This document shows, one piece after another, positions 23,029 to 50,409 of a stretch of 64,000 nucleotides of DNA. Location: assembly GCF_040958095.1 (NCBI RefSeq), contig NC_091233.1:21521297-21585296 (forward strand). Direction: 5' to 3'. Within the stretch, counting starts at the first letter, position 1; every line of letters begins with the position of its first letter. A model generated the notes under the pieces. That model searched no databases. It was not told the DNA's origin and worked only from the letters and a program-made list of their open reading frames with translations. The DNA comes from Procambarus clarkii (Eukaryota > Arthropoda > Malacostraca > Decapoda > Cambaridae). The position numbers and the translations under genes are program-made.

Positions 23029-23202
23029 CAGTCGAACGTTTATGAAGCTGACTAGACCTTCTCCGATGACTTAAAAGTTTATGGAAAGCCTCATCAACTT
23101 TGGCTTGATGGTTGAAAAGGAAGTCGGATAGGATGAGCATCTTTGTTCCGTCAGCAAGAGTCACAACTTCCTCTACAGATATGCCATTTACAGTTATTTT
23201 GC
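23029..23202 (-). CDS. exon 16: second half of FAS1-like repeat 5
   Basis: 174 bp to a potential donor G/GTATGT, phase 1. It reads KITVNGISVEEVVTLADGTK, MLILSDFLFNHQAKVDEAFH and KLLSHRRRSSQLHKRST. If the donor is not used, translation ends with Gly-Met-stop at 23021-23023. The basic tail (RRRSSQLHKR) differs from the other repeats. I found neither a downstream exon nor a clear AATAAA signal, so both a terminal and an internal exon are possible. Confidence 0.8.
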
Positions 23203-26200
23203 CTGTAAATATTCAGATTTTATTACAAAAATACCTACACAATATAAGCAGATGAAAAGTCACAATAACGTGGCTGAAAAAATGTTGACCAAACCACACA
23301 CTAGAAATTGAAGAGACGACAACGTTTCGGTTCGTCTTCGACCATTATCAAGTTCATTATCACTATCTTCTTGAGGTTATCTTGAGATGATTTCGGGGCT
23401 TTAGTGTCCCCGCGGCCCGGTCCTCGACCAGGCCTCCACCCCCAGGAAGCAGCCCGTGACAGCTGACTAACACCCAGGTACCTATTTTAACTGCTAGGTA
23501 ACAGGGGCATAGGGTGAAAGAAACTCTGCCCAATGTTTCTCACCGGCGCCTGGGATCGAACCCAGGACCACAGGATCACAAATCCAGCGTGCTGTCCGCT
23601 CGGCCGACCGGCTCACTAAACAATATAACATTTCAATTTGTGTAGAAATCTGCCAAAAAGTAGAAACACAGTAATATTATTCTAGCTTAGATTAATTTGG
23701 GACACATTACAGTTACAGTATTATTTTCACATCTCTGATACCTGATTCTCTTCAGGAACTCATCTCAATAGAAGACAGTATAGCCAAAATAGAAGAAGCC
23801 TACGAGCTGCATTTATATATACAGTATATATATATGCAGGTATGCTGATTACAATTAATTTTGTCTGTAAATATACAGTTATGATTTTACTGAACAAAGG
23901 CCAATAATGTACAATATAAAATTTAAGTTTGTTTGATTTAATCTTGATTGAATTTTAAGCTTTTTTGAATGCAAATGTCTTAAGATTTTGCATTCAAATT
24001 AAGAACAATTTACTAACAAACATCTATACATTTTCTGTTGGAATGTCTTACAGTTTTGCATTGGAACATCTCACTTTTAGGTTATACAAAAAAATCTAAA
24101 TGCAACACTAACCATCATCACCATTTTTAAAAGTGAGCTCATGTCCTCCAAGGTTAGTAAGAGTGAGACCCTGAGGTTGCGCCATCCTGGGGTCCTGGCC
24201 GCTGACTGACTCTTGGACGAGGTGATCTGCTACAAACTGAGTAAGGAGAGCCACATTCTCGGGACTGGAATCATAAAGAGGGTGTGGAGCATCTTGAGGC
24301 ACCAAGTTCACCATTACATGGTGAGCGGGTGAGAGAATAGTCTTGGGCTCTGGAAAACAGTGAATTGAATTATTGTATCATAAAGTCTATGCACTGTAAT
24401 TTGTGTATTTACACACTCAGTTAAAGAAGGTACAGTATTATGTTGTGTAGAACTGTCACAATGTATTGTATAGTATAGGGGGTAAGCAGCACAAAGGACC
24501 ATGTCCTTGGTTCAAAATCAAGGAACCTGGGTTCAGACTCCGGGTAGGACAGCAACAGTTGGGCATATTTCCTTTCACTTATAATAATAATAATAATTTA
24601 TTTAGGAACAGTACATACATAGTTGCAGCATTACAGTACAAACATTCTGTTAGATTTAAAGATAGAGGTAGTACATATAATACCTAAAGCCACTAGTACG
24701 CATAGCGTTTCGGGTAAGGAGAGGTGGGGAAAAAAACACTTATACTAAAACTTAATAGTAATTGAGCTTAAAGTATAAATTGTGTTGAAGGAAAAAAAAA
24801 TAATAATAAAAGATAAAAAAAAAGGGGGGGGGGGAACATGGTAGAAAATAGCCAATATACAAGTTGGTCAACAAACAGCATTTTTTTTTTTTTTTTTTTT
24901 TGTAAATAGTAAGACATGGGTTGACATTTAGAAGTAAGGTAGGTTACATGGAGTTAATTAGGTAGTACTTAGTTTTCATCTTAAACTGGTTGAGAGAGGT
25001 ACAATCTTTGACATAATTGGGAAGGCCATTCCACATTCTGGGTCCCTTGATTTGTAGAGCATTCCTAGTTTGATTAAGTCTAACTCTTGGAATATCAAAT
25101 AGGTATTTGTTTCTGGTGTGGTGCACATACTTGATACCTGTGTTCACCTAGCAGTTAAACAGGTGCCTGCAGTTAGCTAATTGGTGTTGAGTTGCATCCT
25201 GGAAAAGGTCCGTAGTCAGCCTACGGCACCTCTGAATGCCTTAGTACAGACTTGCACTCCCTGGCAACCGGAATTACATGTATTGTAGCTTATTGAAAGG
25301 AGCGAAATCATATAATTGCTGTTCAAATGTATAACTACCAAATAATGCATCAATACCTGTACTACATGGCTTCACATCACTGTAGCAAGGAACGAGAGAC
25401 ATCTTATAATTACATTATCAGACGTGTAAAGGCATGTTAATAAGTACTGTATGTTAAAATTTATGAATGCGTCTGGGAAGGACAGCCACTGCTTTAAACA
25501 GCCTAGTGTGAGGACAAGTTGTAGTGTGATACTCTCTGTGTATTATTATTATTACACAGAAAAATCACATTAATGTGATATATCAAACAACAAATCCACA
25601 GGAGCCTTGATGAGGGTTCGAACCTAAGTGTTGAGTGTTTCTAGACGCACTTTAGTCAACTGTACTACGACATGGTCAAAAGAATTGCAACCTGGAGTGC
25701 TACTGCACTCACGTTGCAATTCACTCACGAGTTGCAAGCAACTCTCCAAGTTGCAATTCTTTTGACCCTGTCATGGTACAGTTGATGAGAGCGGGTCTGG
25801 GAATACTCGGCGCATGGGTTTGAACCCTCATCAAGGCTCCTGTGGACTTGTTCTATTATTATTATTATTATTATAAAAGAAGAATTTTATGAGCATTTCT
25901 AACATTCCTACATAAATGAAATTAAATAAACACAGTACATACTATATGTAGATGAGTAGTCTTGGAAGGTAAGGGCCCGGTCCCAGAAAGCCAGGAGCGA
26001 GGGGTTAGCCTCCTCCACAAGCAGGGGGATGCTGGGGAGTGTCAGTGTTGCCTCTGCCACAGATGCTTCCTTGGAGATCAATGGGGTATCTACTGCAGAT
26101 GTTGGTAGTTCTGATTCACTTGTGGGATGCTCTTTTCTAACTGAGGGTTCATCTATTTCAAATGTGGGTAATTTTGCTTCAAAGGTAGGCTCGTGTGTTT

Positions 26201-29200
26201 CAGAGGTGGGTACTTCTGCTTCAAAGGTAGGCTCGTGTGTTTCAGAGGTGGGTACTTCTGCTTCAAAGGTAGGCTCGTGTGTTTCAGATGTGGGTACTTC
26301 TGCTTCAAAGGTAGGCTCTTGTGTTTCAGATGTGGGTACTTCTGCTTCAAAGGTAGGCTCGTGTGTTTTAGATGTGGGTACTTTTGCTTCAAAGGTAGGC
26401 TTGTGTGTTTCAGATGTGGGTACTTCTGCTTCAAAAGTAGGCTCATTTGTTTCAAAGATGGATACTTCTGCTTCAGAGATGGGTAAATCCACTTCAGGAA
26501 CTTGTAATTTTGTCTCAGGAACGACCTCAGGAACTGGATTTGCTTGAGTCAGGGATTCATTTACTTCAGACACTAGAGTTTCTGCTTCAGAGTCTTGTGC
26601 TTCTGAGACTAGTACTGGTGCCTTTTCTCCATGGTGTAGTAATTCTTCTGGCACTAGTGCCTCTTCTCCAAGGTCTGGTACTTCTACAGGCACTGATGCC
26701 TCTTCTCTAAGATCTGTTACTTCTACATGCAATGGTGCCTCTTCTCCAAGTTCTGGTGCATCTAAAAGCACTGGTGCCTCTTTATGTTTTGGCACCTCTA
26801 CAGGCACTGGTGCCTCTTCTATATGTTCTGGCACTTCAACAAGCACTGGTGCCTCCTCACGTTCTGGCAATGCTACAGGCACTGGTGCCTCTTCTATATG
26901 TTCTGACACTTCAACAAGCACTGGTGCCTCCTCACGTTCTGGCAATGCTACAGGCACTGGTGCCTCTTCTATATGTTCTGGCACTTCAACATGCACTGGT
27001 GCCTCCTCACGTTCTGGCAATGCTACAGGCACTGGTGCCTCTTCTATATGTTCTGACACTTCAACAAGCACTGGTGCCTCCTCACGTTCTGGCAATGCTA
27101 CAGGCACTGGTGCCTCTTCTATATGTTCTGGCACTTCAACAAGCACTGGTGCCTCCTCACGTTCTGGCAATGCTACAGGCACTGGTGCCTCTTCTATATG
27201 TTCTGACACTTCAACAAGCACTGGTGCCTCCTCACGTTCTGGCAATGATACAGGCACTGGCGCCTCTTTTATATGTTCTGACACTTCAGCAAGCACTGGT
27301 AACTCCTCCCGTTCTGGCAATGCTACAGGCACTGGTGCCTCTTCTATATGTTCTGACACTTCAACAAGTACTGGTGCTTTTTCTATATATTCTAATGCTT
27401 CTGCTTCCAAAATGGGTGCCTCTGACTCAGACATGTCTACCTTTGCTGCAGATTCTGATACATCTGCTTCAAACCCTGGTTGGTGAGCTTTGGGCACTGG
27501 AGCTTCAATCGATATTGGTATTTCATATGTTTCAGACAATGGGAATTCTTCCTCAAACACCAGTGTTTCTGTTTCACGTTCTTGCAATGCTGCTTCAGAC
27601 AGATTAACATTTGTTTCAGACAGTGGAACATTTTCTTCAGACAGTAGAACCTCTCTTTCAGACAGTGGAACATTTGTTTCAGACAGTGGAACATTTGTTT
27701 CAGTCAGTAGAACATTTGTTTCAGACAATGGAACTTCTGCTTCAGACAGTGGAACATTTATTTCAGACAATGGATCCTCTGCTTCAGACAGTGGAACGTT
27801 TATTTCAGACAGCTCAACCTCTGCTTCTGACAGTGGAACATTTATTTTAGGCAATGGAACCTCTGCTTCAGACAGTGTAGCCTCCGATTCAAGATCTGCT
27901 TCAGGGTATGAAATCTCTGCTTCAGAAAGTGGAACCTTTGCTTCAGACCATGAAACATTTCTTTCAGACAGTGGTACCTCTGCTTTAAGGTCTGAAATCT
28001 TTGCTTCATGCAGTGGAACCTCTGTTTCAGACAGTGCTACTTCTGCTTCATAGAGTGGTACCTTGTATTCTACCACAGGCACCCTTTCTTCCAAAACCTT
28101 TATCTCTGCTTCAGATAATGGCAACTCTGCTTCAAATACCAGGTCATATGGTGCAGACATTGGTATTTCTGCTTCAGATAGTGGCACATCTGCTTCAGAT
28201 AGTGGCACATCTGCTTCAGATAGTGGCACATCTGCTTCAGATAATGGCACATCTGCTTCAGATAGTGGCACATCTGTTTCAGATAGTGGCACATCTGCTT
28301 CAGATGGTGGCACATCTGCTTCAGATAATGGCACATCTGCTTCAGATAATGGCACATCTGCTTCAGATAGTGGCTCTTCTGCTTCTGATTCTGATATGTT
28401 GCCTTCACGTGCTAGAACCTCTGGTTTGGACAGTGGTATCTCCATGTCAGATACCAGCACACCTTTGTCAAACACTGGTGATCCTCCTTCAAACGCTGGC
28501 ACCCTTTTGACAGACACTAGTGATCCTTCTTCAAATGCTGGCACCCCGCCATCAGACACTAGTGCTTCTCCTTCAAACGCTGACACCCCTTCATCATACA
28601 CTGGTGCTTCCCCTTCAAACGCTGACACCCCTTCATCATACACTGGTACTTCTCCTTCAAACGCTGACACCCCTTCATCATACACTGGTGCTTCTCCTTC
28701 AAATGCTGACACCCCTTCATCATACACTGGTGCTTCCCCTTCAAACGCTGACACCCCTTCATCATACACTGGTGCTTCCCCTTCAAACGCTGACACCCCT
28801 TCATCATACACTGGTGCTTCCCCTTCAAACGCTGACACCCCTTCATCATACACTGGTGCTTCCCCTTCAAACGCTGACACCCCTTCAACAGACACTGGTG
28901 CTCCTCCTTCAAATGCTGGCACCCCTTCATCATACACTGGTGCTTCCCCTTCAAACGCTGACACCCCTTCATCATACACTGGTGCCTCCCCTTCAAATGC
29001 TGACACCCCTTCAACAGACACTGGTGCTTCCCCTTCAAATGCTGGCACCCCTTCATCATACACTGGTGCTTCCCCTTCAATTGCTGGCACCCTTTCAACA
29101 GACACTGGTGCTCCTCCTTCAATTGCTGGCACCCTTTCAACAGACACTGGTGCTCCTCCTTCAATTGCTGGCACCCCTTCAACAGACACTGGTGCTTCCC

Positions 29201-31611
29201 CTTCAATTGCTGGCACCCTTTCAACAGACACTGGTGCTCCTCCTTCAATTGCTGGCACCCCTTCAACAGACACTGGTGCTTCCCCTTCAATTGCTGGCAC
29301 CCTTTCAACAGACACTGGTGCTTCCCCTTCAATTGCTGGCACCCTTTCAACAGACACTGGTGCTTCCCCTTCAATTGCTGGCACCCCTTCAACAGACACT
29401 GGTGCTTCCCCTTCAATTGCTGGCACCCTTTCAACAGACACTGGTGCTCCTCCTTCAATTGCTGGCACCCCTTCAACAGACACTGGTGCTTCCCCTTCAA
29501 TTGCTGGCACCCTTTCAACAGACACTGGTGCTTCCCCTTCAATTGCTGGCACCCTTTCAACAGACACTGGTGCTTCCCCTTCAATTGCTGGCACCCCTTC
29601 AACAGACACTGGTGCTTCCCCTTCAATTGCTGGCACCCTTTCAACAGACACTGGTGCTTCCCCTTCAAATGCTGGCACCCTTTCATCAGACACTGGTGAT
29701 CCTCCTTCAGACACTGGCACCCCTTCATCAGTCACTGGCACCTCTACTGCAGATTCTGTAATAAATATTATCTTGCCTTAATTCTTGCAGGAAAGTATTT
29801 ATTTGGGGGATAACCTACAATAAACAATGAATACAAAGTGACTAAAATTACTTATACAGTATATGTTATATCTATAATGTTTTCTCCCTGTAAAAAGTAT
29901 TGTAAAGATGCACTTATTCACTCAGTGATGCTTGACTATTAATAAAAAGAAAGAGGAATTACATCTACTGTCCAAGAGATATTATATTTATTTACTGTAT
30001 ACCTGTACATATATATGTTGTACCTAATAGTCAGAGTGCACTACTTGGCCTAGTATGCAAGGCCTGATTTGCCCAACAGGCAGATTGATTTTTATATTAT
30101 TTTCAAATATTTCCTTTCAAATTGGTGAAGAGTGCTGGAGCAAGGGAGTGGGAGACACACACATGGGCCCTGTGGCACAGTGGTCGGTGCAATCACGCCA
30201 CAGTAGGAAAGTTTCAGGTTTAACTCCCCCCATCCCCCCCAGCAGGAGGTTATCTTGAGATGATTTCGGGGCTTAGCGTCCCCGCGGCCCGGTCCTCGAC
30301 CAGGCCTCCTTTTTGTTACACATTCCTGGGAAGCAGCCCGTAGCAGCTGTCTAACCCCCAGGTACCTACAGTATTTACTGCTGGGTGAACAGATGCATCA
30401 GGGTGAAAGAAACTCTGCCCATTTGTTTCTGCCTCCACCAGGAATTGAAGCCGGAACCTCAGGACTACGAATCCCGAGCGCTGTCCAATCAGCTTTCAGG
30501 ACAAAAGCATTTGGACATTGTTTCCTTTCACCTAAAGCTAAAGTTCAATTAGCAGCAAATAGGTACCCAGGAGTTAGTTTTACTTGATTTACTGGAGGGG
30601 CCACTAATCCTAGTGGCCTTTGACGAGGACAGGAAGCCAGCGGCTTGTCAAAAGTCCCCCCCCCCCCCATTTGCCTTGATCTTTTCCAGGTATATATTAA
30701 ACCTCAACTCAGTTTTGGCGGTTGCGAATTTGGCGGGTAGGCAGTTCCATGGGTTAATAAGCCTGTGGGTGAAAAAGCACCTCCTGTTCTCAGTCCTACA
30801 TTGTGGTTTGTTGAGCTTGAAACCATTGCTCCTTGTTTGTGTTACATCTGACCTTCTGAAGAAAATATCCGGATCAATAACCTCTAACTTTGTTGTCAAC
30901 TACCAATTACCAATTTGTTGTCAACTACCATTTTAAGCTGTCATTGCAATCAATCATAGCTACCTATGTGCTTTAATATACTGTACCTATAATTTTCTCT
31001 CATCTTTTTTTTTTTTCATTCCATGTAATCTGTTATCATTTTTTTGTCTATAAATTTTGCAAGTATTTACCTCCTTAAAATTTTCTTAGATTAAGGACCT
31101 GCCCGAAACGCTGCGCGTGCTAGTGGCTTTACAAGACTGTAATTACCATAATTGTATCCTCACATTCCTTATGTACATTCTTGTATATGCATAAATAAAT
31201 AAATAAATAAAACTTGTTCAGTATTTTAAAAGTTTCAGTGAGCTCCACCCTGTCATGCCTGGTTTGCAGTGTTATATAACTATAGCAAAAAATGCAAATA
31301 AAACAGGAACAAGTAGAAATGAACTAAGAATCAATGTAATTAGACAAGTAGAATACATATGACAAATAAAAATAAGGATTCAATAAAGAATGACTATGTT
31401 TAGAACAAAATAAACTTAGCAAATTACAAAAATTGACACTAATTTTTTTTATTATTCAAATCAAATCAAATCAAATGTTTATTCAGGTAAAAGTACATAC
31501 ATGGAAGCTTAGTTACAAACATAATGTTGGATTTATAGATAGAGCTAGTACATTCAATACCTAAAGCCACTAGTACGCATAGTGTTTTGGGCAAGAGCCT
31601 TTTTTTCGGGC

Positions 31612-42500: not shown

Positions 42501-45500
42501 CAGACGATTAAAGGGCAGCCAGCACTCTGAATAAAAACGTTACATCAGTGTTCACACTAGAGATTGGATAACATTCCATTACTCAACACAAATGTATGAA
42601 GCAGGTGAAGAGAGCAAATAACGTGCAATGTAATCAGGAAGACCATTGACAAACTAAAATGACTCGAAAGCCCCAGGTGTGGATGGAATTCAATCCAAAG
42701 TCATAAAGGAACTGGCAAAGAAAATATGCCTACCACTGAAATTTCTTTTCAGAAAATCTCTGGGCCAAGGAATAGTTCCCCCCTAGATTGGAGATATGCA
42801 AATGTTACCCATATTTCAAAAAGACAGAAAGATCTCAGCAGAAAACTATCATCCAATCAGCTTGACCTCACACATCTGCAAACTCATGGAGAGAATCATA
42901 AGGCTTCCTGTCAGCTTCCTGTCCCCATTAGATATACTGGCCTTCGAGTAAAAAAAAATTAAAAATAAAAACTCAAGTACAGTATAGTGTAGAAGGTATG
43001 GCAGAAGAATGAATTTGTCCTGTGAGATCAGTACATTTGGGGATAAGCCATGTGACCTTAGAGGAAATGATCAGAAGAAAGAATTATAGTTATACAGGAA
43101 TAATGTCATGCTTTCCTGTAATCCTCACACCTTTGGATGGTAATTCATATGGGAGAACAAGGCAGGCAAGAGATATTTATCGAGATCCATACACAGTAAC
43201 TGAAATGGTGATCATCAATTATCTCTCACTTTTCTATAAATTTTCCACCTTGTTTCCTTTCCATTTTCCATTCCTATACTTACCAATTCAGGAGTAATGA
43301 CCACAAAGATCACACCACAACTCACCCTGCTTATCCACCTTGAATGTGAGTTCCTTGCCAGCCATGTTAGTGATGGTGAGCCCCTCGGGTTGAGCCAGCC
43401 TGGGATCCTGGTCAATCACGGGATCGAGTACCAAGTAGTCGAGCAGGAACTTAGAACGGAGAGCCTGGTTGTCAGCACTGCTGCCATAGAGCGGGTGAGA
43501 GGCATCCTGTACCACCAGCTTCACCACCTCCAGGTAGTCGGGTGACAGAATTGTCATCGGATCTGATGAAAGAGTACAATGAAATCACAAGAACGTGCAT
43601 ATATCTATAAGAAAATATTGAAGTCGTATGGTGGGATCGAACAAACCTAAGAAGTCCAGGGATGCCAATTCAATCCCATTGTATGGCTTCAATATTTTCT
43701 CAGGAAAAATGGCAATTGATTATATTTGACCTAAATATATCAGTATGTCAAAGAGAGCAAGAAGAGATACATATAAAAAGAGAAAGAAAGAATGCAAGTC
43801 ACTTTCAATTAAGGGAAAGAGTGGAGAGAAATCTAAGTTAATGTGAAATTAACATTAAACTGCACTGTTAGGTTTCAGCTTTGGAACCAATTTGTTGGTT
43901 AGATTTAGGACTAGGAATCAGTAGGTTTATTATATTTAGGCCTTGGAGCCAATTAGTTGGGTAGTTGGCTAAATTTAGGCCTTGAAAGAGGAAACAATTG
44001 GAATAGGATATTAGTGTTCTTCAGAAATTAAATTAATTTTATTCTACTAGATTTACTTCATCATTTAAGAGGCTATAAGCTCATGCAAGGGAGCCCCTAT
44101 TTATTTTCAAATATTGCCAATCATGTATTTACCCAATCTATATGCATGAAACTGTCAACGGAGTTTGCTTCCATAATGAGGCACCATTATGGCACCTGGT
44201 ACACAATGAAATCACGATAACATGATCTATGAGAAAATATTCAGACACTGTGGTGAGGTAGAACCAACATGCCTGGACTTCCCGAACAGTGTGTAATGCA
44301 CGTCTCTGGGAAGTCTATATGGACAAGAGTTCTATCCTACTCTGGTGCCTCATTTTTGTATATGGTGAATTCTAAAGGTACCATGACAGAGCCCTTAGGC
44401 ACTCCATTTGTAACATTTTCCCACTCTAACTTGGCTCCATTTATGCTGACCCTTTCTTTCCAAGAAAATCCTCTGTATCTTTATTAATCCTTTATCCTCT
44501 GTATCTGTATCTGTATCCATTATATCTGTATCCACTATATCTGTATTTTGTGCTATCCGATCCCCCAATATAAGCCATATAACTTTACCTTTGTAATCAT
44601 TGATATCATCTTATATCATGGTTGTTATATTGAACACATATTGTGTGCTACCCAATCCCCCAATATACATATCTAAGCCTTACAACTTTACCATTAAACA
44701 TTGCTGTTATCTTATCTTATATGTGATATCAGTGTGCTTTAATGTGCCTACTAATCTTTGTCATATTATCAATCAAGCTATCAATGCTATCAATCAAAGC
44801 TTTCAATGTGCTTTAATGTGCCTACTTATCTTTGTCAAATTTTCTAACAATGTACCTATTAACATTTTATAAATTTTGCTAGAAATTACCTACTTAATAT
44901 TATCTGTTATACTAAGGACCTGCCCGAAACGCTGTGTGTACTAGTGGCTTTACAAGAATGTGAACACATGATGCTTTGTACTCTCATAAAGCCAATGTAA
45001 CTTCTTGTATATATATAAATAAATGTGATAAGCATGATGTAATTAAGGAGGAATTTCACAGGAGGTGGTGCAGGGAATGAGCTGAGAATGGGAAAATGAT
45101 ATTGTTGGACACACCTGCAGAGTCTTTGGGAGAAGTCAATGCATCCTGGTTTGTGAGGGCATGGTGCCACAGGTCAATCAGTGTGGAAGCCTCAAATTCC
45201 TCTACTAGAGGGGGAATCCTGCCAATCTTCACTGCCATACCAGACACTCCCACCTCTGGTTCAGATTCAGATTCAGGCTGTAGTACTTTTGTTTCCGGCT
45301 CTGTAATATCTGATTCTGAAAGCGATTTTTCTGTTAAAGGCACTGTAATATCTGCTTTTGAAAGAGATATCTCTGTTACAGGCAGTGTAATGTCTGCTTC
45401 TGACACTGGAGCCTCTAATTCAGATTCTGCCAATTCTGTTTCCTCTGGAACGTCAATTTCGGAAATTGATTCCACTGTTTGAAGCTCTGCAGTAACTGCA

Positions 45501-48500
45501 TCTGATGATATTAGGTGTTTTTCAAGTGCCTGTGTTTTAATTTCAATTACTGCATCTTCTTCATCAAAAGCTCGTTCATCTCTTTCAGGTTCAATGACTT
45601 TGGATAGAGGAATGGTTTTGTTTGTTTCAGGTACTTCCACTTCATGGACAGTGAACACAGAAGGGCTGTTAGTTGTAAGATGAAGGTTATCTTCTGCTTC
45701 TGAGAGTACAGCTGTATCCACAGATGCTTCAGGTGAGATTTCAGAGCTTGATACAGAACCAGCGGAGCTCTCAAACGAAATTTCAGTACTCGGGTTAGTA
45801 TCTGCTGCTATTTCAATTGCTGACACAGGCTCTGTAGTATTTGAGTCTTCAACTCCATCAGGCACATCGTAACTTGCGCTTAGCGATTTAGCTTCTCTGC
45901 TTGGATTATCATCAATTTCTTGCTCTGGTTCCTCCAATGGAATAAAATCAAGTTTTCCATCTGGTGTGTGAGCATTCAATGTAGAATCCTGAAGAAGCAG
46001 AACAGAATCATCCATCTCAGGGTTGGGTTCTCTGTTTGTTGGTGTCTCTAAATTATCTGCATATAGCATCTTTTCCTCGGGTAATAATCCATAACTAAAG
46101 TCGCCCATTGGCATTGCTTTGAAATTTTCATAATCAAGTACTACTTCAGTGGTAGTGGAAGGCGAATATCCATCAAAGGTTTCTGTGACCAGATTTGGTT
46201 CAACAAGGGACTGAGTTTCTGGAACATATGCGACATTAAGAGATTCAGTAAGAGGGAGGATATCTTCAGGGACAGATGCAATGGATTCAGTAACTGGGAT
46301 GATGTCTTTGAGCTGAGAGAAGGCCGTTATTGGAGGGGACGTTTCAGATGAGATTTCCGTCACTTGACTGACCACGACAGAATAGCGAGCAGTGTCATCT
46401 TTTTCAACGGAGGAGGGTCGAGGTACCTGCACTGGTCCCACGGATGGCTCGCCTGCATGCTCTTGTGACGCCTTGCCTGACCACAGGAGATAACACAACA
46501 TAAATTATACAAAACCTAATGAGTAATTGGATGAATGGATACATACTAGCCAAGTGGATTCACACTGACTAAGTGACTATGCACTGGTCAAGCGGCTACA
46601 CACTGGCTGAGTGGGCACTAATCTTTTATAAATGTAAACAGGTTAATTTAAATAAAATTGGTCATTACAGCAAATTTAAGTTTGAAAGGCATGCAGTAAA
46701 CATTACCGAGAAGTGAGGATGACGGCCTGGTCTCACTGGCATGGGAGCTGAGGAACTGGAAGGCTTCATCCAGGCGGTCCTTGTGGTCTTCCAGGAAGCG
46801 CTCCAGGGTGTAAATCTTGGTACCATCATCTAACGTCTTCAGGCCCTCCACTGGCGACCCATTGACGTTAACCTTCCCTGGAAAAATAGATGACCAGTTT
46901 GTAGTTCCATTTTAAAGCTACATTGTATCAGTATCTGATTGTATCTGTAACCTAGACGTAGTCTATATAACCGAACTGCTATTTCCCTGTGGATTAATTT
47001 TGGGAAATATAACCTTTCTAACTTGGTTGCCTGAAGATACCAGAGGGCGAACCTTCTGCTACTCTCTGGAGTAGATAGGCTTTGTTGAGGTGTGAGTGTT
47101 TTTTGGTGATGATATTTTTTATGTTCTCTAGGCTGGATTGAATTGTTTTATGTATCACTGGATGACGAGTTGCCAATTTAGCAATTTCATCGGCTTTCTC
47201 ATTTAATGGGCTTCCAACATGGGATGGGATCCAGTTTAAGGTGATGCCTTTAGCATCACCTTAAACTGGATCTTTGTCTTTTGCCTTTAGCGACTGCTCC
47301 AAGATACAAAATGGTGGTAATTATTTCCACGTTGTCTTTCCACTGCTTTTGTCCTAATATTTGAGGTGCAGCTTTTGAGTCTGTGTGTTTGATTGCATTT
47401 TGAGTGTTTTGTGCAATCACATATGCGAATGCCTGTTGTATGGCAAACAGCTCAGTTTGGGTTGATGATACTGGTCCTCCCAGTCTCCAATATGCCTGTT
47501 TGCTGTCCGTGCAAAGAACAGCACCAGCACTCATATTCTGTGTCAACCGATTCGTCTGTGAAGATGTGAGTGGCTCCTGCTACTGCGCATTTGCTTTCTA
47601 TTATGCACCTTAGGATTGTTGGATCATAAGCAGCCTTTTTCATTGGGAGACTTTCTATTACTATTTTGAAGGTAGGCCCCTCCCACAGTGGGGAGGAGCC
47701 TACCTTCAAAATAGGTAGCCTATACCTTCTTTTCCTTAGTCAAAGGTACGCTTAATTATTCCGCGATAATATTCCGAGATTTATTAAGTGATAATGTAAG
47801 CTTTGTCACAAGTTACATATCATCATTCAATTTTGTTGTTTATGTAATAAAGTTTCATTGTAATTATTAATTTGATAAAAAAACAGTAAGGGTATTTATT
47901 AATTTTGTTGTTTTCATTAATATAAAATAATTATTATGTTTTAATTATGCATATAATTATTATTACTTTATTGAAACAGTAATAATATAATGAAATATTT
48001 ACAAATTTGGAATAAATGAGAAACGTACTGATAATGTGGCATGGAAAGTGAGGTTATTGAAGATGGCCCAAAAGATGGTTGATGAAAATGACCCGAAAGT
48101 GAGGCTGATGATCTGAAAGTGAGGTTGATGACCCGAAAGTGAGGTTGATGACTAAAAAGTGATTGATAACCCGAAAGTGAGGCTGATGATCCGAAAGTGA
48201 GATTGGTGATCCGAAAGTGAGGTTGATGACCCGAAAGTGAGGCTGATGATCCGAAAGTGAGATTGGTGATCCGAAAGTGAGGTTGATGACCCGAAAGTGA
48301 GATTGATGATACGACAGTAATTAAAGTTGGTGACCCAAAAGTGAGCTTGATGGCCCAGAAGACTTACCCCGGGGGTCTCTGGTAAAGACCAAATCGTCGC
48401 CAGTGTGAGAGGCCATCTTAAGTCCTCCAGGCTGGCTGATCCTCGGGTCGTGGGCATCAAGAGCCTCCAGTTGCAGGAACTCCAGCAGCTCCTTCATCCC

Positions 48501-50409
48501 TTTGGCAGGTACCTTCTGGCCCGCCACGCCCTCGGGATGCGGGTCCTGCCCTCCTTCTGCATCATACACAATAGACAGAGGAGTTAGTGAGTGTTGGACC
48601 TCTCTCAGTTATGATGTACTAGGTGCTGCCTTCCTACTAGTTATGTACTAGGTGCTGTCTTCCTACTAATGTACTAGGTGCTGCCCTCACACTAGTGATG
48701 TACTGGGTCCTTCCCTCCCACTAGTGATGTACCAGGTTCTGTTGGGGTCAGGAAACCTGTATATTTAGGTTTATATCGAGGTCTTCCTCCTAGGTCATCT
48801 ACTGACCTTTTCTAAGATGCACCCACCACAACAATTTACTAACTCTCAGGTACCCATCTACTGCTAGGTGAGCAGACGCATTAGGTGAAAGTAAAGATGC
48901 CCAACAATTTCTGCCCTGCCCGGGATTCGATCCCGAGAGTAGCGATTGTGAGTCCAGAACGAACCAACCTATACTCGGAGACCCATATACCAACTACGAA
49001 AACTCATATATAATGAATAAAGGGTCGCCAGGAGTACAGTCGGGTTCGAATCCCGGACGGAACAGAAATGGTTGGGCACCTTTCCTTTCACCTAATGCCT
49101 CTGTTCACTTGACAGTGAGTAGGGACTCGGGAGTTAGTCAGCTTGTTGTGGGTTTGCATCCTGGGCTGGGTCGGGCCAGTTCCTTAATTCGGCCTTGGAA
49201 AGGGGGGATATCCCTCCCTCGATAAAAGCCAAACGTGTATATATACACTCTGGCTTCCTGTCCCCCCAACACACCGAATTACTCAAATTATAACATCCCA
49301 TTTGCACCATTTGAGGACAAAGGCGCTCTGATGTCAGTGGGGGGATTACCTGTTTCGACTTCTTTTTTCCCTACTTCAACGTGTTTTTTCTGTCTGCTTG
49401 ACCTATATATTACCTAACAGTAAACTCAAGCATGAACAAAAACATGTACTTTGTGGCAAGGGGCCTTTGAACCCGTTTTAGAAGGGGTCAGAAAATGCCA
49501 TCACCAGTGACTATGAGCCTAGTCACTGTGTCAAGATATGATATATTTACTGCATAGCTTTATTGCAGTAAACAGCTAAAACTTGATGTGAACAGGTTAT
49601 GCTTCAAGTAAACAACTTTCATTATACTTGTAGTAGTTCACTTACATTTACAGTAAAAACTTATACTTTGGATAATTATAAATTATACTTATAATTATAA
49701 ATTATAATTATAAATATACTTATAATTATTTATACTGCGAGTATAAATAATTTATTGTGAGTAAGTGGATTACTCACAATAAATTATTTATACTCGCAGT
49801 AAATAACTTATACTGAAGTAAGCTACTTATACTTGCAGGAAATAACTTATACTGCAGTAAGCTACTTATACTTGCAGGAAATAACTTATACTGAAGTAAG
49901 CTACTTATACTTGCAGGAAATAACTTATACTGAAGTAAGCTACTTATACTTGCAGGAAATAACTTATACTGAAGTAAGCTACTTATACTTGCAGGAAATA
50001 ACTTATACTGCAGTAAGCTACTTATACTTGCAGTAAATAACTTATACTGAAGTAAGCTACTTATACTTGCAGGAAATAACTTATACTAGTAACAAAGGAC
50101 TTATACTTGCGGTACTCACCTAGTTGTGCTTGCAGGGAGGTTGAGCTCTGGCTCTTTGGTCCCGCCTCTCAACTGTCAATCAACTGGTGTACAGGTTCCT
50201 GAGCCTACTGGGCTCAATCATATCTACACTTGAAACTGTGTATGACAAAAAATAAAGGAAGGCTGTGTGCGGATGCGACTCACCTGGATGTGTATGGTTG
50301 CTGGATGCATGGTTGAGGGTATAGGAGTGGGCGGGGGTCCTGGGTAGCGTGGCCCCATGTAGGGTAGCCACCAGTACGCCCATCACCACCACCACCCTCG
50401 CCGCCCACA
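23029..50409 (-). CDS. giant modular FAS1-like protein gene (16 exons recognised)
   Basis: Model, 5' to 3' on the minus strand: 50409-50284, 48556-48368, 46877-46707, 46476-45115, 43562-43326, 40816-40646, 40232-40138, 39981-39852, 37248-37018, 34858-34682, 34012-33845, 32675-32439, 32140-31973, 29755-25943, 24349-24113, 23202-23029. Every junction has AG/GT borders and preserves frame (phase 1, except phase 0 between the seventh and eighth), giving about 2,562 codons. The product has a signal-like N-terminus and five FAS1-like repeats separated by acidic disordered linkers. The repeats carry QDAxxPLY, DPRxxQPxGL, a LAGKTLTF-like strand, VNGI and FLFDHR-like motifs. FAS1 domains are typical of secreted or membrane-anchored adhesion and matrix proteins; that role here is inferred. 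The first coding exon upstream is missing. The last exon either continues downstream or stops two codons past its donor. Confidence 0.8.
23283..23350 (+). repeat. single arm of the GACGACGTTTCGG foldback family
   Basis: TTGACCAAACCACACACTAG, GAAGAGACGACAACGTTTCG and TTCGACCATTATCAAG are diverged from the arm at 2762-2828. Lies within intron 15. Confidence 0.7.
23372..23613 (-). mobile_element. tRNA-derived SINE (GACGCTAAGCCCCG family), subtype 2
   Basis: Tail ACACTAAAGCCCCGAAATCA, body CCCTATGCCCCTGTTACC and head GAGCCGGTCGGCCGAGCGGA with GGGTTCGATCCCAGG. It differs in the head from 3084-3323 and matches 53154-53395. Lies in intron 15, after exon 15. Confidence 0.85.
24113..24349 (-). CDS. 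exon 15: first half of FAS1-like repeat 5
   Basis: 237 bp, acceptor CTGTTTTCCAG, donor G/GTTAGT, phase 1 at both ends. It reads KPKTILSPAHHVMVNLVPQD, APHPLYDSSPENVALLTQFV, ADHLVQESVSGQDPRMAQPQ and GLTLTNLGGHELTFKNGDD. Same length as exons 5 and 12. Confidence 0.9.
24475..24590 (+). mobile_element. SINE head/body fragment
   Basis: GAACCTGGGTTCAGACTCCG then GACAGCAACAGTTGGGCATA and TTTCCTTTCACTTA resemble the body at 49040-49100. Ends at an (AAT)5 run. Confidence 0.55.
24594..25147 (-). mobile_element. LINE 3' end (KGPRMWN family)
   Basis: The minus strand encodes YVHHTRNKYLFDIPRVRLNQ, then TRNALQIKGPRMWNGLPNYV and KDCTSLNQFKMKTKYYLINS, then stops. The 3' UTR ends CCCGAAACGCTATGCGTACT, AGTGGCTTTAGGTATTATAT and TAAATAAATTATTATTATTA. 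It is the best C-terminal copy of this family in the window. Lies in intron 14. Confidence 0.8.
25137..25235 (+). mobile_element. SINE body fragment
   Basis: TGTTCACCTAGCAGTTAAAC, TGCATCCTGGAAAAGGTC and GTAGTCAGCCTACGGCACC, abutting the LINE fragment. Confidence 0.55.
25591..25853. repeat. large tRNA-like foldback
   Basis: ACAAATCCACAGGAGCCTTG, ATGAGGGTTCGAACC and TCAACTGTACTACGACATGG lead to a centre with inverted GTTGCAA words. They are then mirrored by CATGGTACAGTTGATGAGAG, TTTGAACCCTCATCAAGG and CTCCTGTGGACTTGTTC. The right arm reads like a tRNA-SINE head. Related foldbacks: 31669-31860 and, half, 38365-38540. Lies in intron 14. Confidence 0.75.
25943..29755 (-). CDS. exon 14: giant 3.8-kb acidic tandem-repeat linker exon
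   Basis: 3,813 bp and 1,271 codons without a stop; acceptor ATTTATTACAG, donor A/GTATGT, phase 1 at both ends. From the N-terminus: about 28400-29755 encodes 14-residue (42-bp) repeats of the type APVSVERVPAIEGE, grading into APVYDEGVSAFEGE. About 28164-28370 encodes heptads PLSEADV; 27610-28040 has looser heptads (PLSETNV). 26720-27380 encodes 25-residue (75-bp) repeats (EAPVLVEVSEHIEE then APVPVALPERE). 26165-26470 encodes 14-residue EVPTSETHEPTFEA. It ends with LLVEEANPSLLAFWDRALTF, the start motif of repeat 5. The composition (Pro, Glu, Val, Ala, Ser; very few aromatic or Cys) predicts an extended acidic disordered chain, loosely like PEVK segments but poor in Lys. Elastic, spacer or calcium-binding roles are only guesses. 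Confidence 0.85.
29800..30160. other. intron 13 part without recognisable repeat
   Basis: AT-rich intron sequence upstream of the exon 14 acceptor. Nothing else is seen. Confidence 0.5.
30165..30240 (+). mobile_element. tRNA-like SINE head fragment
   Basis: GGCCCTGTGGCACAGTGGTC, GCAATCACGCCACAGTAGG and TTTCAGGTTTAACTCCCC resemble a tRNA-like head with a damaged B box, adjacent to another SINE. Confidence 0.45.
30248..30500 (-). mobile_element. tRNA-derived SINE (GACGCTAAGCCCCG family)
   Basis: GGGCTTAGCGTCCCCGCGGC at the left end, GGAAGCAGCCCGTAGCAGCT in the body and GGACTACGAATCCCGAGCGC at the head side, all reverse complement of the SINE. The B-box region is mutated (GGAATTGAAGCCGG). Confidence 0.85.
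30505..30585 (+). mobile_element. SINE body fragment
   Basis: TTTCCTTTCACCTAAAGCTA and AGCAAATAGGTACCCAGGAG are body words of the family at 49021-49260. Confidence 0.6.
30595..30905 (-). mobile_element. LINE ORF2 C-terminal fragment (CRTENR family)
   Basis: The minus strand reads IDPDIFFRRSDVTQTRSNGF, KLNKPQCRTENRRCFFTHRL and INPWNCLPAKFATAKTELR, then FNIYLEK. It matches the C-terminal region of non-LTR ORF2 proteins (RF..R....WN.LP.....). Lies in intron 13. Confidence 0.75.
30925..31208 (+). mobile_element. LINE 3' UTR and tail with (AAAT)n
   Basis: AGCTGTCATTGCAATCAATC, TACCTATGTGCTTTAATATA, TTAAGGACCTGCCCGAAACG and TGTACATTCTTGTATATGCA match the longer copies at 44500-45027 and 54992-55464. 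Ends in (AAAT)5. Confidence 0.8.
31459..31592 (-). mobile_element. LINE 3' tail with (AAATC)n
   Basis: TCAAATCAAATCAAATGTTT begins the terminal end, then GTACATACATGGAAGCTTAG, AGCTAGTACATTCAATACCT and AAAGCCACTAGTACGCATAG. Same type as 37344-37482. Confidence 0.8.
31615..31668 (+). repeat. (ATT)n microsatellite
   Basis: About 18 perfect ATT/TTA units between a LINE tail and a foldback in intron 13. Confidence 0.95.
31669..31862. repeat. tRNA-like foldback
   Basis: GAACAAATCCACAGGAGCCT, GTGTTCGAACCTATGTGTCG, AGTCAACTGCACCACGACAT and then, inverted, TAGTTGACTAGAGCACGTCT, TGGGTTCGAACCTTTATC, GTGGATTTGTTCC. Imperfect arms of about 95 bp. Same family as 25591-25853. Confidence 0.75.
31973..32140 (-). 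CDS. exon 13: second half of FAS1-like repeat 4
   Basis: 168 bp, acceptor AGCTATAATTTCAG, donor TTTG/GTGAGC, phase 1 at both ends. It reads TVSVNGIPIETAEELTDGTQ, VYILTDFLFDHRARVGEAFE and RLNSRVNTNYFTNQF. The usual arrangement of VNGI, DGTQVYIL and DFLFDHR is complete. Confidence 0.9.
32439..32675 (-). CDS. exon 12: first half of FAS1-like repeat 4 (alternative acceptors)
   Basis: 237 bp when the acceptor TGCTTCAACAG is used; donor G/GTGAGT, phase 1 at both ends. It reads PMMLLSPDFFTMMNLVPQD, VAHPLYDDSDENVALRTEFL, LDYLVQDPLDTHDPRTTAPE and GITVTNLAGKKLTFKAHADG. A 42-bp direct duplication of the exon's 5' edge supplies a second in-phase acceptor, so the exon may also start at 32717, adding 14 residues (SVRLLSPGFIAST). 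Confidence 0.9.
33171..33270 (+). repeat. dispersed repeat (CACAAGATGGGTATGGGGTG family)
   Basis: GAACTGTGGGGTTCAGTCCC, CCCATTATGTGCTTCTGTAA and GATGGGTATGGGGTGCATAA. Partial relative of 35961-36136. Lies in intron 11. Confidence 0.8.
33271..33602 (+). mobile_element. complete tRNA-derived SINE with LINE-type tail and poly(A)
   Basis: The tRNA-like head CTCCGTGGTGTAGTGGTAAG, ACACTCGCCTGGCGTTCCGC, GGGTTCGTATCCTGGCC has A- and B-box-like words. The body follows (GTAGCCTCTGTTTAACGCAA, GGATCGTATTCCAGGGACC). Then comes the tail TTAAGGACTTGCCCGAAACG, TACTAGTGGCTGTACAAGAA, and about 61 A residues. The tail is the same as the LINE tails at 31080 and 52218. Confidence 0.8.
33845..34012 (-). CDS. exon 11: short linker and repeat-4 start motif
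   Basis: 168 bp ending at donor CAAG/GTTTGT. It reads ELEVSEPINETPAAHNVAVV, then PEIPQVVEEDDSLPLLNLWR and HALWSQDSSLSLRDAQ. The acceptor was chosen as AATTACTCCTAG because it alone keeps phase 1 without a stop. The stronger-looking TAACTGTAG upstream would put TGA in frame. The start is therefore less certain than the end. Confidence 0.75.
34054..34114 (+). repeat. hairpin element copy (CATAGCCCGT family)
   Basis: GGGGCTCACCATAGCCTGTG then TTTTTGTTCCAGGTAGC. Lies just upstream of exon 11 in intron 10. Confidence 0.7.
34115..34670. other. intron 10, no repeat recognised
   Basis: AT-rich. Contains an (AGT)/(AAT) run at 34243-34275 and nothing else identifiable. Confidence 0.5.
34682..34858 (-). 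CDS. exon 10: second half of FAS1-like repeat 3
   Basis: 177 bp, acceptor GTTATGTCTCCAG, donor GAG/GTAGGA, phase 1 at both ends. It reads KMTVNGISATQVEQLPDGTV, then VYTVDDFLFDHRALVEDAFK, then QLLRENLAVGIVPLPSAR. MTVNG...LPDGTVVYTVDDFLF follows the FAS1 pattern of a VNG strand, an isoleucine-rich turn and the final VxVIDxVL-type strand. Confidence 0.9.
34870..35635. other. intron 9 portion, no feature
   Basis: AT-rich. Part of the sequence just after 34858 repeats exon-edge words (CCGTTTATAGTCATCTTTAC), a small duplication of the exon 10 start region. Confidence 0.45.
35640..36950 (+). pseudogene. decayed LINE ORF2 (RT to C-terminus) split by a repeat
   Basis: Frameshifted plus-strand remnants occur in order: SSVPQSSILGA-like (RT motif), NPFLQYTSMT (for LFxIYINDI), WSDDWKSFSKLKNA, then after 36136 EKRFLGVMMI, LEYVALVWYPN, PELKNICYEERLETL and SRIEDRKKMRGYDHY. 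These follow the usual C-terminal order of jockey/CR1-type polymerases. The repeat at 35961-36136 interrupts it. Not translatable. Lies in intron 9. Confidence 0.7.
35961..36136 (+). repeat. dispersed repeat (CACAAGATGGGTATGGGGTG family), long copy
   Basis: From CCATTGTTGATGTGATGACT through GGTTCAGTCCCTGAGCCCAT to GGTGCATAATAAATGAACTA. Almost identical over its whole length to the reverse complement of 57957-58135, so both are recent insertions. Part of a SINE or LINE 3' end; the head is not visible. Confidence 0.8.
37018..37248 (-). CDS. exon 9: first half of FAS1-like repeat 3
   Basis: 231 bp, acceptor ATAGTTCCAG, donor G/GTAATT, phase 1 at both ends. It reads TVVSPGHGVMVTLIPQDAPN, PLYDNSDRNSALRARFLLDY, FVHDPIRANDPRLAQPDG and LTVTNLAGKTLTFKRDADG. 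TLIPQDAP occupies the place of the TVFAPTNEAF-type strand of canonical FAS1 domains, and LLDYFVHDP that of the YHVV segment. NLAGKTLTF fits the conserved FAS1 strand. Confidence 0.9.
37344..37482 (-). mobile_element. LINE 3' tail with (AAATC)n
   Basis: CAAATCAAATCAAATGCTTA, TAGATAGAGCTAATACATAC and GCCTAAAGCCACTAATACGC. Same subtype as 31459-31592. Lies in intron 8. Confidence 0.8.
37670..37800 (-). mobile_element. LINE C-terminal remnant (CRTENR family)
   Basis: GTGGCCTCAACAGGGGCAAG, GAGCTGACAGCTTATCAAAG and the following TTTTTGAAGATTTGATTCC match the ends of 30600-30900 and 41285-41500 but are decayed. Confidence 0.45.
37853..38190 (-). mobile_element. LINE ORF2 C-terminus (SNSLVDQ family)
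   Basis: The minus frame reads SRGAIGTIREHCINIRGPRL, FNVLPASIRNIAGTTVDIFK, RKLDLFLQGVPDQPGCGGYV and GLRAAPSNSLVDQTL, then the 3' end with GGTAACCAGGTATCAACCAG. It is the cleanest copy of this family here. Lies in intron 8. Confidence 0.8.
38365..38545. repeat. tRNA-like foldback, partial
   Basis: CAAATCCACAGGAGCCATGA, AGTCAACTGCACCACGACAT and CAAAAGAATTGCAACCTGGG match the left arm of 25591-25853. The right side is shortened to GCCGAATTTGTGGATTTGTT. Confidence 0.7.
38800..38885 (-). mobile_element. LINE C-terminal remnant
   Basis: GGGGAGACCTTTGATAAGCC, ACCAGCTTCCTGACCTCATC and TAGCGGCCCTCAGGTAAA correspond to the terminal words of the CRTENR family. Confidence 0.45.
39405..39550 (+). mobile_element. 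LINE 3' tail with (ATTT)n
   Basis: TTGCCCGAAACGCATTGCGT, AATAGTGGCTTTAGGCATTG and TATGTACCTTACCTGAATAA, then ATTT units. Close to 16575-16732. Lies in intron 8. Confidence 0.8.
39852..39981 (-). CDS. exon 8: linker and repeat-3 start motif
   Basis: 130 bp, acceptor ACACTTCCAG, donor ACAG/GTGATA, phase 0 in and phase 1 out. It reads AESLLLVVPPMPATLESRTS then SLYNLWRHTLRNQGS and AVATNDST. LYNLWRHTLRNQ matches LIDLWHHALTNQ of exon 4 and LLNLWRHALWSQ of exon 11. Confidence 0.8.
40138..40232 (-). CDS. exon 7: short acidic linker
   Basis: 95 bp, acceptor TCCATTTATGTAG, donor CAG/GTACGT, entering in phase 1 and leaving in phase 0, the only non-phase-1 exit in the gene. It reads QESTTRTEESSTVLLPDAPE then ADVESPSDSEQ. 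The phase fits exons 6 and 8 exactly. Confidence 0.75.
40646..40816 (-). CDS. exon 6: second half of FAS1-like repeat 2
   Basis: 171 bp, acceptor AATTTGTCCTTCAG, donor AAG/GTGAGC, phase 1 at both ends. It reads NIVVNDIPVVDHQILPDGTQ, then VYILSDFLFDHRAILYQ, then a short acidic tail PPLDNPDTTLTPDTWDQ. VNGI of the other repeats is VNDI here. Confidence 0.9.
41043..41140 (+). repeat. dispersed repeat (GTCCCGCCTCTCAACYGTCA family)
   Basis: ACTCACCTAATTATGCTTGA, TCTGGCTCTTTGGTCCCGCC and GTACAGGTTCCTGGATTACT. A second copy lies at 50113-50215. Lies in intron 5. Confidence 0.75.
41285..41780 (-). mobile_element. LINE ORF2 C-terminal fragment (CRTENR family)
   Basis: The minus strand reads MKTVQHRATKIISKLSGLSY, QEQLRATGLTALQTRHSRAD, IEIIKIFNWLEDINPNYLF, CKLEKPKCRTENRRCFFTYR and VINPRNCLP. 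This is the region downstream of the RT palm in jockey/CR1-type ORF2. 5'-truncated. Lies in intron 5. Confidence 0.8.
42060..42905 (+). pseudogene. decayed LINE reverse transcriptase
   Basis: Remnants such as SPGVDGIQSKVIKELAK, NPKSFYVYIRSKTKTKDSV (in DPKSFYVYIRSKTKTKDS form) and, frameshifted, the NYRPISLT-like region can be read in order on the plus strand. Several stops and frameshifts make it non-functional. Opposite orientation to the host gene, intron 5. Confidence 0.65.
43326..43562 (-). CDS. exon 5: first half of FAS1-like repeat 2
   Basis: 237 bp, acceptor TCTTTCATCAG, donor G/GTGAGT, phase 1 at both ends. It reads DPMTILSPDYLEVVKLVVQD, then ASHPLYGSSADNQALRSKFL, then LDYLVLD, then DPRLAQPEGLTITNMAGKEL. 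Length and phase are identical to exons 12 and 15, a strong sign of domain duplication. Confidence 0.9.
43611..43706. repeat. foldback element (GAGAAAATATTGAAGTC termini)
   Basis: AAGAAAATATTGAAGTCGTA then GGTGGGATCGAAC on the left, AATCCCATTGTATGGCTTCA then ATATTTTCTCAG on the right. Copy of 20858-20978. Lies in intron 4. Confidence 0.7.
44228..44290. repeat. partial copy of the same foldback family
   Basis: TATGAGAAAATATTCAGACA, TGTGGTGAGGTAGAACCAAC. Only one arm is recognisable. Confidence 0.5.
44360..44475 (-). mobile_element. CR1-like RT fragment
   Basis: CCTTAGGCACTCCATTTGTA, ACATTTTCCCACTCTAACTT and GGCTCCATTTATGCTGACCC parallel 11250-11310 of the intact CR1-like ORF2 (the SINGxKxEWENV...GVPxGSV region), diverged. 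Confidence 0.75.
44500..45027 (+). mobile_element. LINE 3' UTR and tail
   Basis: Contains two tandem partial copies of GCTACCCAATCCCCCAATAT-like and TCAATGTGCTTTAATGTGCC words, then CTAAGGACCTGCCCGAAACG, TAGTGGCTTTACAAGAATGT and ATATATATAAATAAATG. Longer relative of 54992-55464. Lies in intron 4. Confidence 0.75.
45115..46476 (-). CDS. exon 4: acidic disordered linker and repeat-2 start motif
   Basis: A 1,362-bp exon with acceptor CTCCTGTGGTCAG and donor CAG/GTGTGT. It encodes 454 residues rich in Glu, Ser, Thr, Val, Pro and Ala. Near the C-terminus there are irregular heptad or 14-residue repeats such as ADITLPVTEISLS, ADITVPLTEKSLS and SDITEPETKV. The exon ends with IPPLVEEFEAS then TLIDLWHHALTNQD. 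This W-containing motif recurs at the end of exons 8, 11 and 14 and appears to be the first helix of the following FAS1-like repeat. The wording resembles the giant exon 14, suggesting common ancestry. Confidence 0.85.
46707..46877 (-). CDS. exon 3: second half of FAS1-like repeat 1
   Basis: Acceptor TTTTTCCAG, donor G/GTAATG, 171 bp, phase 1 at both ends. It reads KVNVNGSPVEGLKTLDDGTK, then IYTLERFLEDHKDRLDEAF, then QFLSSHASETRPSSSLLG. VNVNG and the DGTKIY strand match the C-terminal beta region of FAS1 domains. The same positions read MTVNG and DGTVVY in repeat 3. Confidence 0.85.
46990..47715 (-). pseudogene. LINE RNase H domain remnant with hairpin rearrangement
   Basis: The minus strand keeps an RNase H domain in pieces: THIFTDESVDTEYE (first Asp), STQTELFAIQQAFAYVIAQN (Glu), IKHTDSKAAPQIL (Asp), then after a hairpin at 47228-47272, ITLNWIPSHVGSPLNEKADE (His and last Asp) and IAKLATRHPVIHKTIQS. 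Two frameshifts break it. RNase H of this type belongs to I-group LINEs. Lies in intron 2. Confidence 0.75.
48060..48330 (+). repeat. 20-bp minisatellite next to exon 2
   Basis: The unit is TGATGACCCGAAAGTGAGGT with variants (GATCCGAAAGTGAGATTGG). About 12 copies, beginning some 40 bp beyond the exon 2 donor. Confidence 0.9.
48368..48556 (-). CDS. exon 2: first half of FAS1-like repeat 1
   Basis: Acceptor GTATGATGCAG, donor G/GTAAGT, 189 bp, phase 1 at both ends. It encodes AKGMKELLEFLQLEALD, then AHDPRISQPGGLKMAS and HTGDDLVFTRDPRG. It aligns with the back part of the first-half exons of repeats 2-5 (DPR..QP.GL), but lacks their N-terminal LVPQDAPHPLY-like strand, so repeat 1 is shortened or more diverged. 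Confidence 0.75.
48600..48745 (+). repeat. short tandem repeat, unit about 32 bp
   Basis: ACTAGTGATGTACTAGGTGC then TGCCTTCCTACTAGT-like, about four to five imperfect copies in intron 1. Confidence 0.75.
48780..48985 (-). mobile_element. tRNA-derived SINE (TTGGGCACC/ATC body)
   Basis: The minus strand reads GGTCTCCGAGTATAGGTTGG, GGATCGAATCCCGGGCAGGG, TTTCACCTAATGCGTCTGCT, GCAGTAGATGGGTACCTGAG. Faces 49021-49260 as an inverted pair. Confidence 0.75.
49021..49262 (+). mobile_element. tRNA-derived SINE
   Basis: GGTTCGAATCCCGGACGGAA is the B-box word. Body GGTTGGGCACCTTTCCTTTC, GGGACTCGGGAGTTAGTCAG, GGGTTTGCATCCTGG. 3' part AAAGCCAAACGTGTATATAT then CTGGCTTCCTGTCCC. Confidence 0.75.
49263..49670. 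other. intron 1, no feature
   Basis: No recognised repeat. TTTATTGCAGTAAACAGCTA-like words foreshadow the array at 49815-50095. Confidence 0.45.
49676..49815. repeat. AT-rich cruciform-prone inverted repeat
   Basis: Alternating ATAATTATAAATTAT words are followed by TTATTTATACTGCGAGTATA and AATAATTTATTGTGAGTAAG. The latter is mirrored by TTACTCACAATAAATTATTT and ATACTCGCAGTAAATAA. Confidence 0.85.
49815..50095 (+). repeat. 39-bp minisatellite, about 7 copies
   Basis: The unit is TTATACTTGCAGGAAATAAC, TTATACTGAAGTAAGCTAC, with CTGCAG/CTGAAG variants. It contains repeated ACTTGCAG 3'-splice-like words on the plus strand, probably coincidental. Lies in intron 1, between exons 1 and 2. Confidence 0.9.
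50113..50215 (+). repeat. dispersed repeat (GTCCCGCCTCTCAACYGTCA family)
   Basis: Second copy of 41043-41140, with GGAGGTTGAGCTCTGGCTCT and CAACTGGTGTACAGGTTCCT. Confidence 0.75.
50284..50409 (-). CDS. exon 1 of model: signal-peptide segment
   Basis: The acceptor TTTCTCCTGCTACAG precedes it and the donor CAG/GTGAGT follows. It reads VWAARVVVVMGVLVATLHGA followed by TLPRTPAHSYTLNHAS and SNHTHPG. The hydrophobic core followed by small residues looks like a secretory signal with cleavage near HGA. An N-glycosylation-type NHT is present. The exon opens in phase 1, so one base and the initiator Met should come from an upstream exon I did not find. The internal ATG would leave a very short signal. 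Confidence 0.7.

Follow-up and report, generated by a model that had tools for sequence, protein, structure and literature searches.

A candidate divergent FAS1 protein family that combines a conserved half domain with very long acidic linkers in the crayfish Procambarus clarkii

Gene structure and deposited protein

The window analyzed here is a stretch of 64,000 nucleotides from the genome of the crayfish Procambarus clarkii (NCBI RefSeq assembly GCF_040958095.1, contig NC_091233.1, positions 21,521,297 to 21,585,296), whose minus strand carries a gene for a giant modular protein with FAS1-related domains and long acidic linkers. Between positions 50409 and 23029, 16 exons with AG/GT borders join without a stop into 2,562 codons, which bears out the approximately 2,560 codons proposed earlier from the letters of this DNA alone (hereafter the sequence-only reading). 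The product has been deposited as "titin homolog isoform X2 [Procambarus clarkii]" (P0011, 2,575 amino acids) and was recovered in the third of our protein searches. Compared letter by letter, the joined exons and P0011 are identical except for three insertions in P0011 that amount to 13 residues: TRLRKV (6) near the start, VP (2) in repeat 3, and EFTVL (5) at the end. In addition, residues 1-1150 of the joined protein match a protein of the crayfish Cherax quadricarinatus (P0014) with 55% identity over 98%. Because of this identity save for three small insertions, together with the Cherax match, the exon join is not due to chance; the deposited entry, for its part, may stem from gene prediction.

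The VP insertion reflects an acceptor of repeat 3 exon B that lies 6 bases upstream, so that the exon starts at 37254 and not at 37248; P0014 likewise has P preceding GTVVSP. EFTVL and the stop are encoded by a last exon at 21922-21906, to which repeat 5 exon C is spliced at CTG/GTATGT and whose acceptor is pyrimidine-rich, and the gene therefore extends past the lower limit of the 23029-50409 span. P0011 begins with MTRLRKV..., supplied by an exon upstream of the signal exon; pattern searches for this first exon (MTRLRK) gave no one-piece match upstream of 50409 in the window, and it presumably lies beyond position 64000. The residue before the signal exon in the joined model depends on an assumed base A giving ATG, whereas P0011 has V there. 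Thus, the span first proposed for the gene does hold the 16 exons, but the first and last exons fall outside it. Conserved intron phases had also been claimed, and phase 1 is indeed found in 14 of the 15 introns between the 16 exons, the exception being the phase 0 intron between linker L2 and repeat 3 exon A. Open frames on the plus strand over 25.9-29.8 kilobases were rejected as genes because they overlie tandem repeats and P0011 follows the minus frame.

Since the sequence is deposited, it is not undescribed as a sequence, although it had looked so in the sequence-only reading, and it has decapod relatives. Searches of the open-access literature with the gene and locus names and with titin homolog of Procambarus clarkii found no paper, and among the matches listed for FAS1, fasciclin or ig-h3 in crustaceans no study of the family was recognized.

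Table 1. Exons of the FAS1-related gene, in order of transcription
Feature	Position	Strand	Basis
Signal-peptide-like exon, second coding exon	50284..50409	-	joined exons, P0011 match, hydrophobic peak at P0011 residues 7-25
Half-FAS1 repeat 1, exon B	48368..48556	-	joined exons, P0011 match, domain profile
Half-FAS1 repeat 1, exon C	46707..46877	-	joined exons, P0011 match, domain profile
Acidic linker L1 (421 amino acids) and FAS1 repeat 2 exon A; holds VVVSQVTEISSE stretch	45115..46476	-	joined exons, P0011 match
FAS1 repeat 2, exon B	43326..43562	-	joined exons, P0011 match, Pfam scan
FAS1 repeat 2, exon C	40646..40816	-	joined exons, P0011 match, Pfam scan
Short linker exon L2, then sole phase 0 intron	40138..40232	-	joined exons, P0011 match
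FAS1 repeat 3, exon A	39852..39981	-	joined exons, P0011 match
FAS1 repeat 3, exon B	37018..37254	-	start set by P0011; 37248 with the acceptor of the joined model
FAS1 repeat 3, exon C	34682..34858	-	joined exons, P0011 match
Short linker and FAS1 repeat 4, exon A	33845..34012	-	joined exons, P0011 match
FAS1 repeat 4, exon B	32439..32675	-	joined exons, P0011 match
FAS1 repeat 4, exon C	31973..32140	-	joined exons, P0011 match
Giant 3,813-base exon: 1,239-residue acidic PEVA linker (L4) with tandem repeats, then FAS1 repeat 5 exon A	25943..29755	-	joined exons, P0011 match
FAS1 repeat 5, exon B	24113..24349	-	joined exons, P0011 match
FAS1 repeat 5, exon C	23029..23202	-	joined exons, P0011 match
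Last coding exon, EFTVL and stop	21906..21922	-	P0011 match; outside 23029-50409 span

FAS1 domains and acidic linkers

Repeats 2-5 each consist of A, B and C parts that can be aligned over about 150 residues, and repeat 1 has the later part only, the N-terminal half of the FAS1 domain being absent. A domain profile seeded with repeats 2-5 of the window and iterated over 19 returned proteins identified four full domains and one half domain in P0011; the full domains had themselves gone into the profile that gave their E-values, whereas the half domains had not. The five FAS1-like repeats proposed from the letters alone are therefore better described as four full domains plus one half domain. 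The half domain occurs in 11 of the 19 proteins (P0004, P0005 and P0011-P0019, with P0014 and P0015 being two versions of one gene) and starts at profile position 64 or 66. By the same profile it was not detected in P0001, P0002, P0003, P0006, P0007, P0008 and P0009, of which P0007 is marked partial and the others are unchecked for N-terminal completeness; the remaining protein without it, P0010, is a paralogue with other domains.

Several lines of evidence relate these domains to FAS1. The Pfam Fasciclin model (PF02469) scores 51.2 bits on the whole of P0011, with a cut-off of 22. A profile of 64 family domains matched the four canonical FAS1 domains of P0010 with a probability of 95.2% and an E-value of 2.6e-8, the maximum among one reversed and ten shuffled controls being 1.11%. 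Searching the PDB by sequence with the window repeats returned no FAS1 protein (three matches, the best, at E 0.85, to fibronectin binding proteins), and comparison at the level of the fold was therefore needed. AlphaFold models of two relatives, P0002 and P0005, have periostin and TGFBIp as structural matches (best Foldseek E-values 1.2e-15 and 6.6e-14), with 11-14% identity in the alignments, so that the FAS1 fold is predicted for these two relatives. Regarding sequence motifs, a loose pattern for the H1 motif (T...P type) is present in 55 of 60 family domains, the consensus T being shared by 97% and the P by 95%; these columns appear, in our own reading, to correspond to H1.

The joined protein contains no cysteine and has a computed isoelectric point of 4.12, with an overall net charge of -0.148 per residue. 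Linker L4, which precedes repeat 5, is composed of 21.4% E, 15.1% V, 12.3% P and 10.9% A (about 60% together) and holds 302 acidic versus 48 basic residues, that is, -0.205 per residue; its long tandem repeats all lie inside one exon. Both composition and charge thus agree with the PEVA-rich acidic linkers described beforehand. The Cherax linker in the place of L4 has 637 residues and a charge of -0.204 per residue in spite of different repeat units, and P0014 and P0015 differ by a single 84-residue insertion in the repeat linker. Because the charge is equal in the two crayfish despite different repeats, it would seem that charge and disorder are kept in the linkers rather than sequence. An exception is the QVPRP...VVVSxVTEISSE stretch in L1, which is conserved and whose VVVSxVT core was found in seven of the 19 proteins (P0004, P0005 and P0011-P0015) from penaeid shrimps, lobster and two crayfish. 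In the AlphaFold model of a Homarus relative, the long linker has block values of the predicted local distance difference test (pLDDT) of 24-34, which fits disorder. At the other end of the protein, the 19-residue mean hydropathy reaches a peak of 1.8 at P0011 residues 7-25 (next best elsewhere, 1.07); such a hydrophobic N-terminal segment fits a secreted protein and agrees with the signal segment suggested earlier.

On the other hand, a number of observations weigh against this picture. When the window repeats were scanned singly, none of the five passed the Pfam cut-off, two matching below it and three not at all, so that the proposed Pfam check succeeds for the whole protein and not for single repeats; 14 of the 19 returned proteins were scanned, and Fasciclin was above the cut-off in seven and not in the other seven. 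The H of the YH motif is mostly lost (YH pattern in 2 of 60 domains), and at about its place the consensus has DY, with Y in 90%. The low pLDDT may also stem from a shallow alignment of 13 sequences. Moreover, in the 14-residue linker repeats (25 units), differences by codon position are 442, 388 and 286, with no third-position excess, and the exact repeat sequence is therefore maybe not under selection. The codon-position test is mixed across the linker repeats, with the corresponding differences being 30, 18 and 24 (7 units of 25 residues), 4, 0 and 10 (5 units of 14 residues), and 181, 0 and 217 (16 units of 7 residues). Since the YH motif is frequent but not obligatory in FAS1 domains, we regard these proteins as a putative divergent subfamily of FAS1, marked by the conserved half domain and by acidic linkers of giant length.

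Relatives and evolution of the family

Named relatives were recovered by protein searches in shrimps, crayfish, lobster, porcelain crabs and an isopod; the searches scored 7,995, 7,995 and 7,980 candidates of similar length and do not speak for absence outside Malacostraca. A close counterpart is OTU49_006211 of Cherax quadricarinatus (P0014 and P0015, named FAS1 domain-containing protein in UniProt), whose half domain and four full domains are arranged as in P0011, but whose linker before the last domain has 637 rather than 1,239 residues, with other repeat units. Penaeus japonicus LOC122265196 (P0012) and P. chinensis LOC125035460 (P0013) share the half domain, the FAS1 domains and the VVVSxVTEISSE stretch, but they differ in having eight full domains each. 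Another P. chinensis protein, LOC125046925 (P0010), has a first domain of the divergent type and canonical FAS1 domains further on, where four stretches pass Pfam (257.5 bits). It was found at a search E-value of 1.8e-39 (P0009, 1.7e-39 at 177 bits), and its domain E-value of 1.9e-49 was obtained with a profile that included that domain. The vertebrate matrix proteins TGFBIp and periostin, each with four FAS1 domains, resemble the family in fold and in the presence of several copies, the latter being a trait of fasciclin I as well; they are secreted, and they are not known to have long acidic linkers or a half domain.

A quick tree was built from 57 of the 65 collected domains, excluding P0001, P0003, P0015 and rows shorter than 120 residues, and it carries flags for meeting long branches. 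Support values are from the Shimodaira-Hasegawa-like approximate likelihood ratio test (SH-aLRT). Domains 1, 2 and 3 of Procambarus each fall together with the like-numbered domain of Cherax (99, 96 and 94, respectively), and the first of these groups also takes in Homarus domain 2. The last Procambarus domain finds no firm place in this 57-domain tree.

Possible functions

Taking domains, linkers and N-terminus together, we propose with moderate confidence that the protein is a secreted extracellular-matrix scaffold of FAS1 heads on acidic spacers. It would be a cysteine-free, very acidic structural protein that is exported by a signal peptide, as one hydrophobic N-terminal segment suggests. 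The half and four full FAS1 domains may act as binding heads, either to each other or to other matrix molecules, and the linkers of about 420 and 1,240 residues, strongly negative and probably disordered, as flexible, hydrated, cation-binding spacers between them. The matrix would most plausibly be the cuticle or another epithelial secretion; the cuticle is the site we would prefer, judging solely from the kind of animal and the chemistry. Any part in cuticle, gastrolith or mineral is an inference, as the sequence-only reading had said of the first two, and so are the binding of mineral and adhesion. A more speculative idea, to which we give little credence at present, is that the half domain is an assembly module that another chain makes whole. 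The protein would then polymerize into a charged matrix whose spacing is set by linker length, and this length would evolve fast via tandem repeats. The basis of this idea is that an N-terminal half-FAS1 is kept in decapods with the same part missing.

Fasciclin-2-like proteins are another kind of protein than the FAS1 family discussed here. Excerpts of the literature mention fasciclin-2-like transcripts (PMC9391574), a secreted fish-louse fasciclin (PMC7029603), and an ig-h3-like transcript tabulated in P. clarkii (PMC6165390), whose identity with the window gene is not implied. The excerpted barnacle work reports FAS1 proteins in the adhesive and suggests an adhesion function (PMC8371367), and that on the salmon louse reports an egg-related FAS1 protein of females whose database hit is the Artemia cathepsin L-associated protein (PMC2329643); kinship of either to the crayfish family is not implied. 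For experimental work, injection of double-stranded RNA is reported in Cherax in an excerpt of PMC11594818.

Among the alternatives, we rank mineral control first, followed by a role in eggs, an elastic spring and, last, the binding of carotenoids. A matrix protein that controls mineral in the calcified cuticle or gastrolith, in which the linkers bind calcium and stabilize amorphous calcium carbonate and the FAS1 heads anchor to chitin or matrix, is doubtful but the strongest of these. The charge sustained across the 1,239 residues of L4 and equaled in the Cherax linker, the acidity of the whole protein, and relatives in Decapoda and an isopod would all suit it, but the linkers are rich in E rather than D, and no tie of the family to mineral was seen among the literature matches listed. 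Moreover, enrichment of Ser-x-Glu, the phosphorylation sites of secreted mineral proteins, was rejected in all four linkers, as counts were not above shuffles (8 vs 7.6 in L1, 20 vs 21.6 in L4, 2 vs 11.7 and 3 vs 7.6 in Cherax). An egg or embryo protein comparable to the Artemia protein and salmon louse Contig9 is unlikely; according to the excerpt of PMC2329643, such crustacean FAS1 proteins occur in large amounts either in encysted eggs and embryos or in females during maturation. Slightly less probable again is that the PEVA linkers form an entropic spring in a stretchable matrix, acting like the PEVK region of titin while being unrelated to it. Their P, E, V and A content and the database name would fit such a spring, but L4 is a strong polyanion, whereas the titin PEVK region has mixed charge.

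Binding of a hydrophobic ligand such as astaxanthin by the FAS1 domains, as in green-algal AstaP, is very improbable. TGFBIp and periostin chains tie with AstaP by Z score, and the fold therefore says nothing about the ligand; in addition, a cyanobacterial AstaP homologue of similar domain structure cannot bind carotenoids, according to the excerpt of PMC10147662. As for a titin homologue, the NCBI name is what speaks for it, the hydrophobic N-terminus speaks against it, and its probability is close to nil. Titin has immunoglobulin (Ig) and fibronectin III arrays and a kinase domain, none of which Pfam lists on P0011 up to E 1, and the two proteins share a name in the database only.

Other features of the window

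About 24 copies of CCTAA, the arthropod telomere unit, lie at 58815-58936, probably in the first intron of the gene. Two intronic open frames on the minus strand, 41285-41746 and 47256-47579, look by eye like decayed retrotransposon pieces and have no Pfam match at E 0.001. A non-long terminal repeat (non-LTR) retrotransposon with two long open frames is located at 10366-14207 (minus strand), the first frame (297 amino acids) having a GDSL lipase-type domain and the other (991 amino acids) an endonuclease and a reverse transcriptase. A tRNA-Thr with anticodon CGT was predicted at 3247-3320 (minus strand); Rfam finds nothing in the window at gathering scores, and this tRNA may therefore be a degenerate copy. 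Minisatellites outside the coding exons occur at 51289-51671, 60112-60742, 62447-62850 and 63427-64000, with units of 27, 30, 20 and 21 bases, respectively.

Implications

The present analysis shows titin homolog to be a misnomer for a large protein of Procambarus clarkii, a farmed and invasive crayfish, and outlines a FAS1 protein family in shrimps, lobster, crayfish, porcelain crabs and an isopod. If the half domain does serve assembly, the protein would be a matrix polymer of crustaceans that assembles itself, which would set it apart from TGFBIp and periostin. If the protein is a component of the cuticle matrix, it would offer a handle on how crustaceans organize a cuticle that is rebuilt at each moult.
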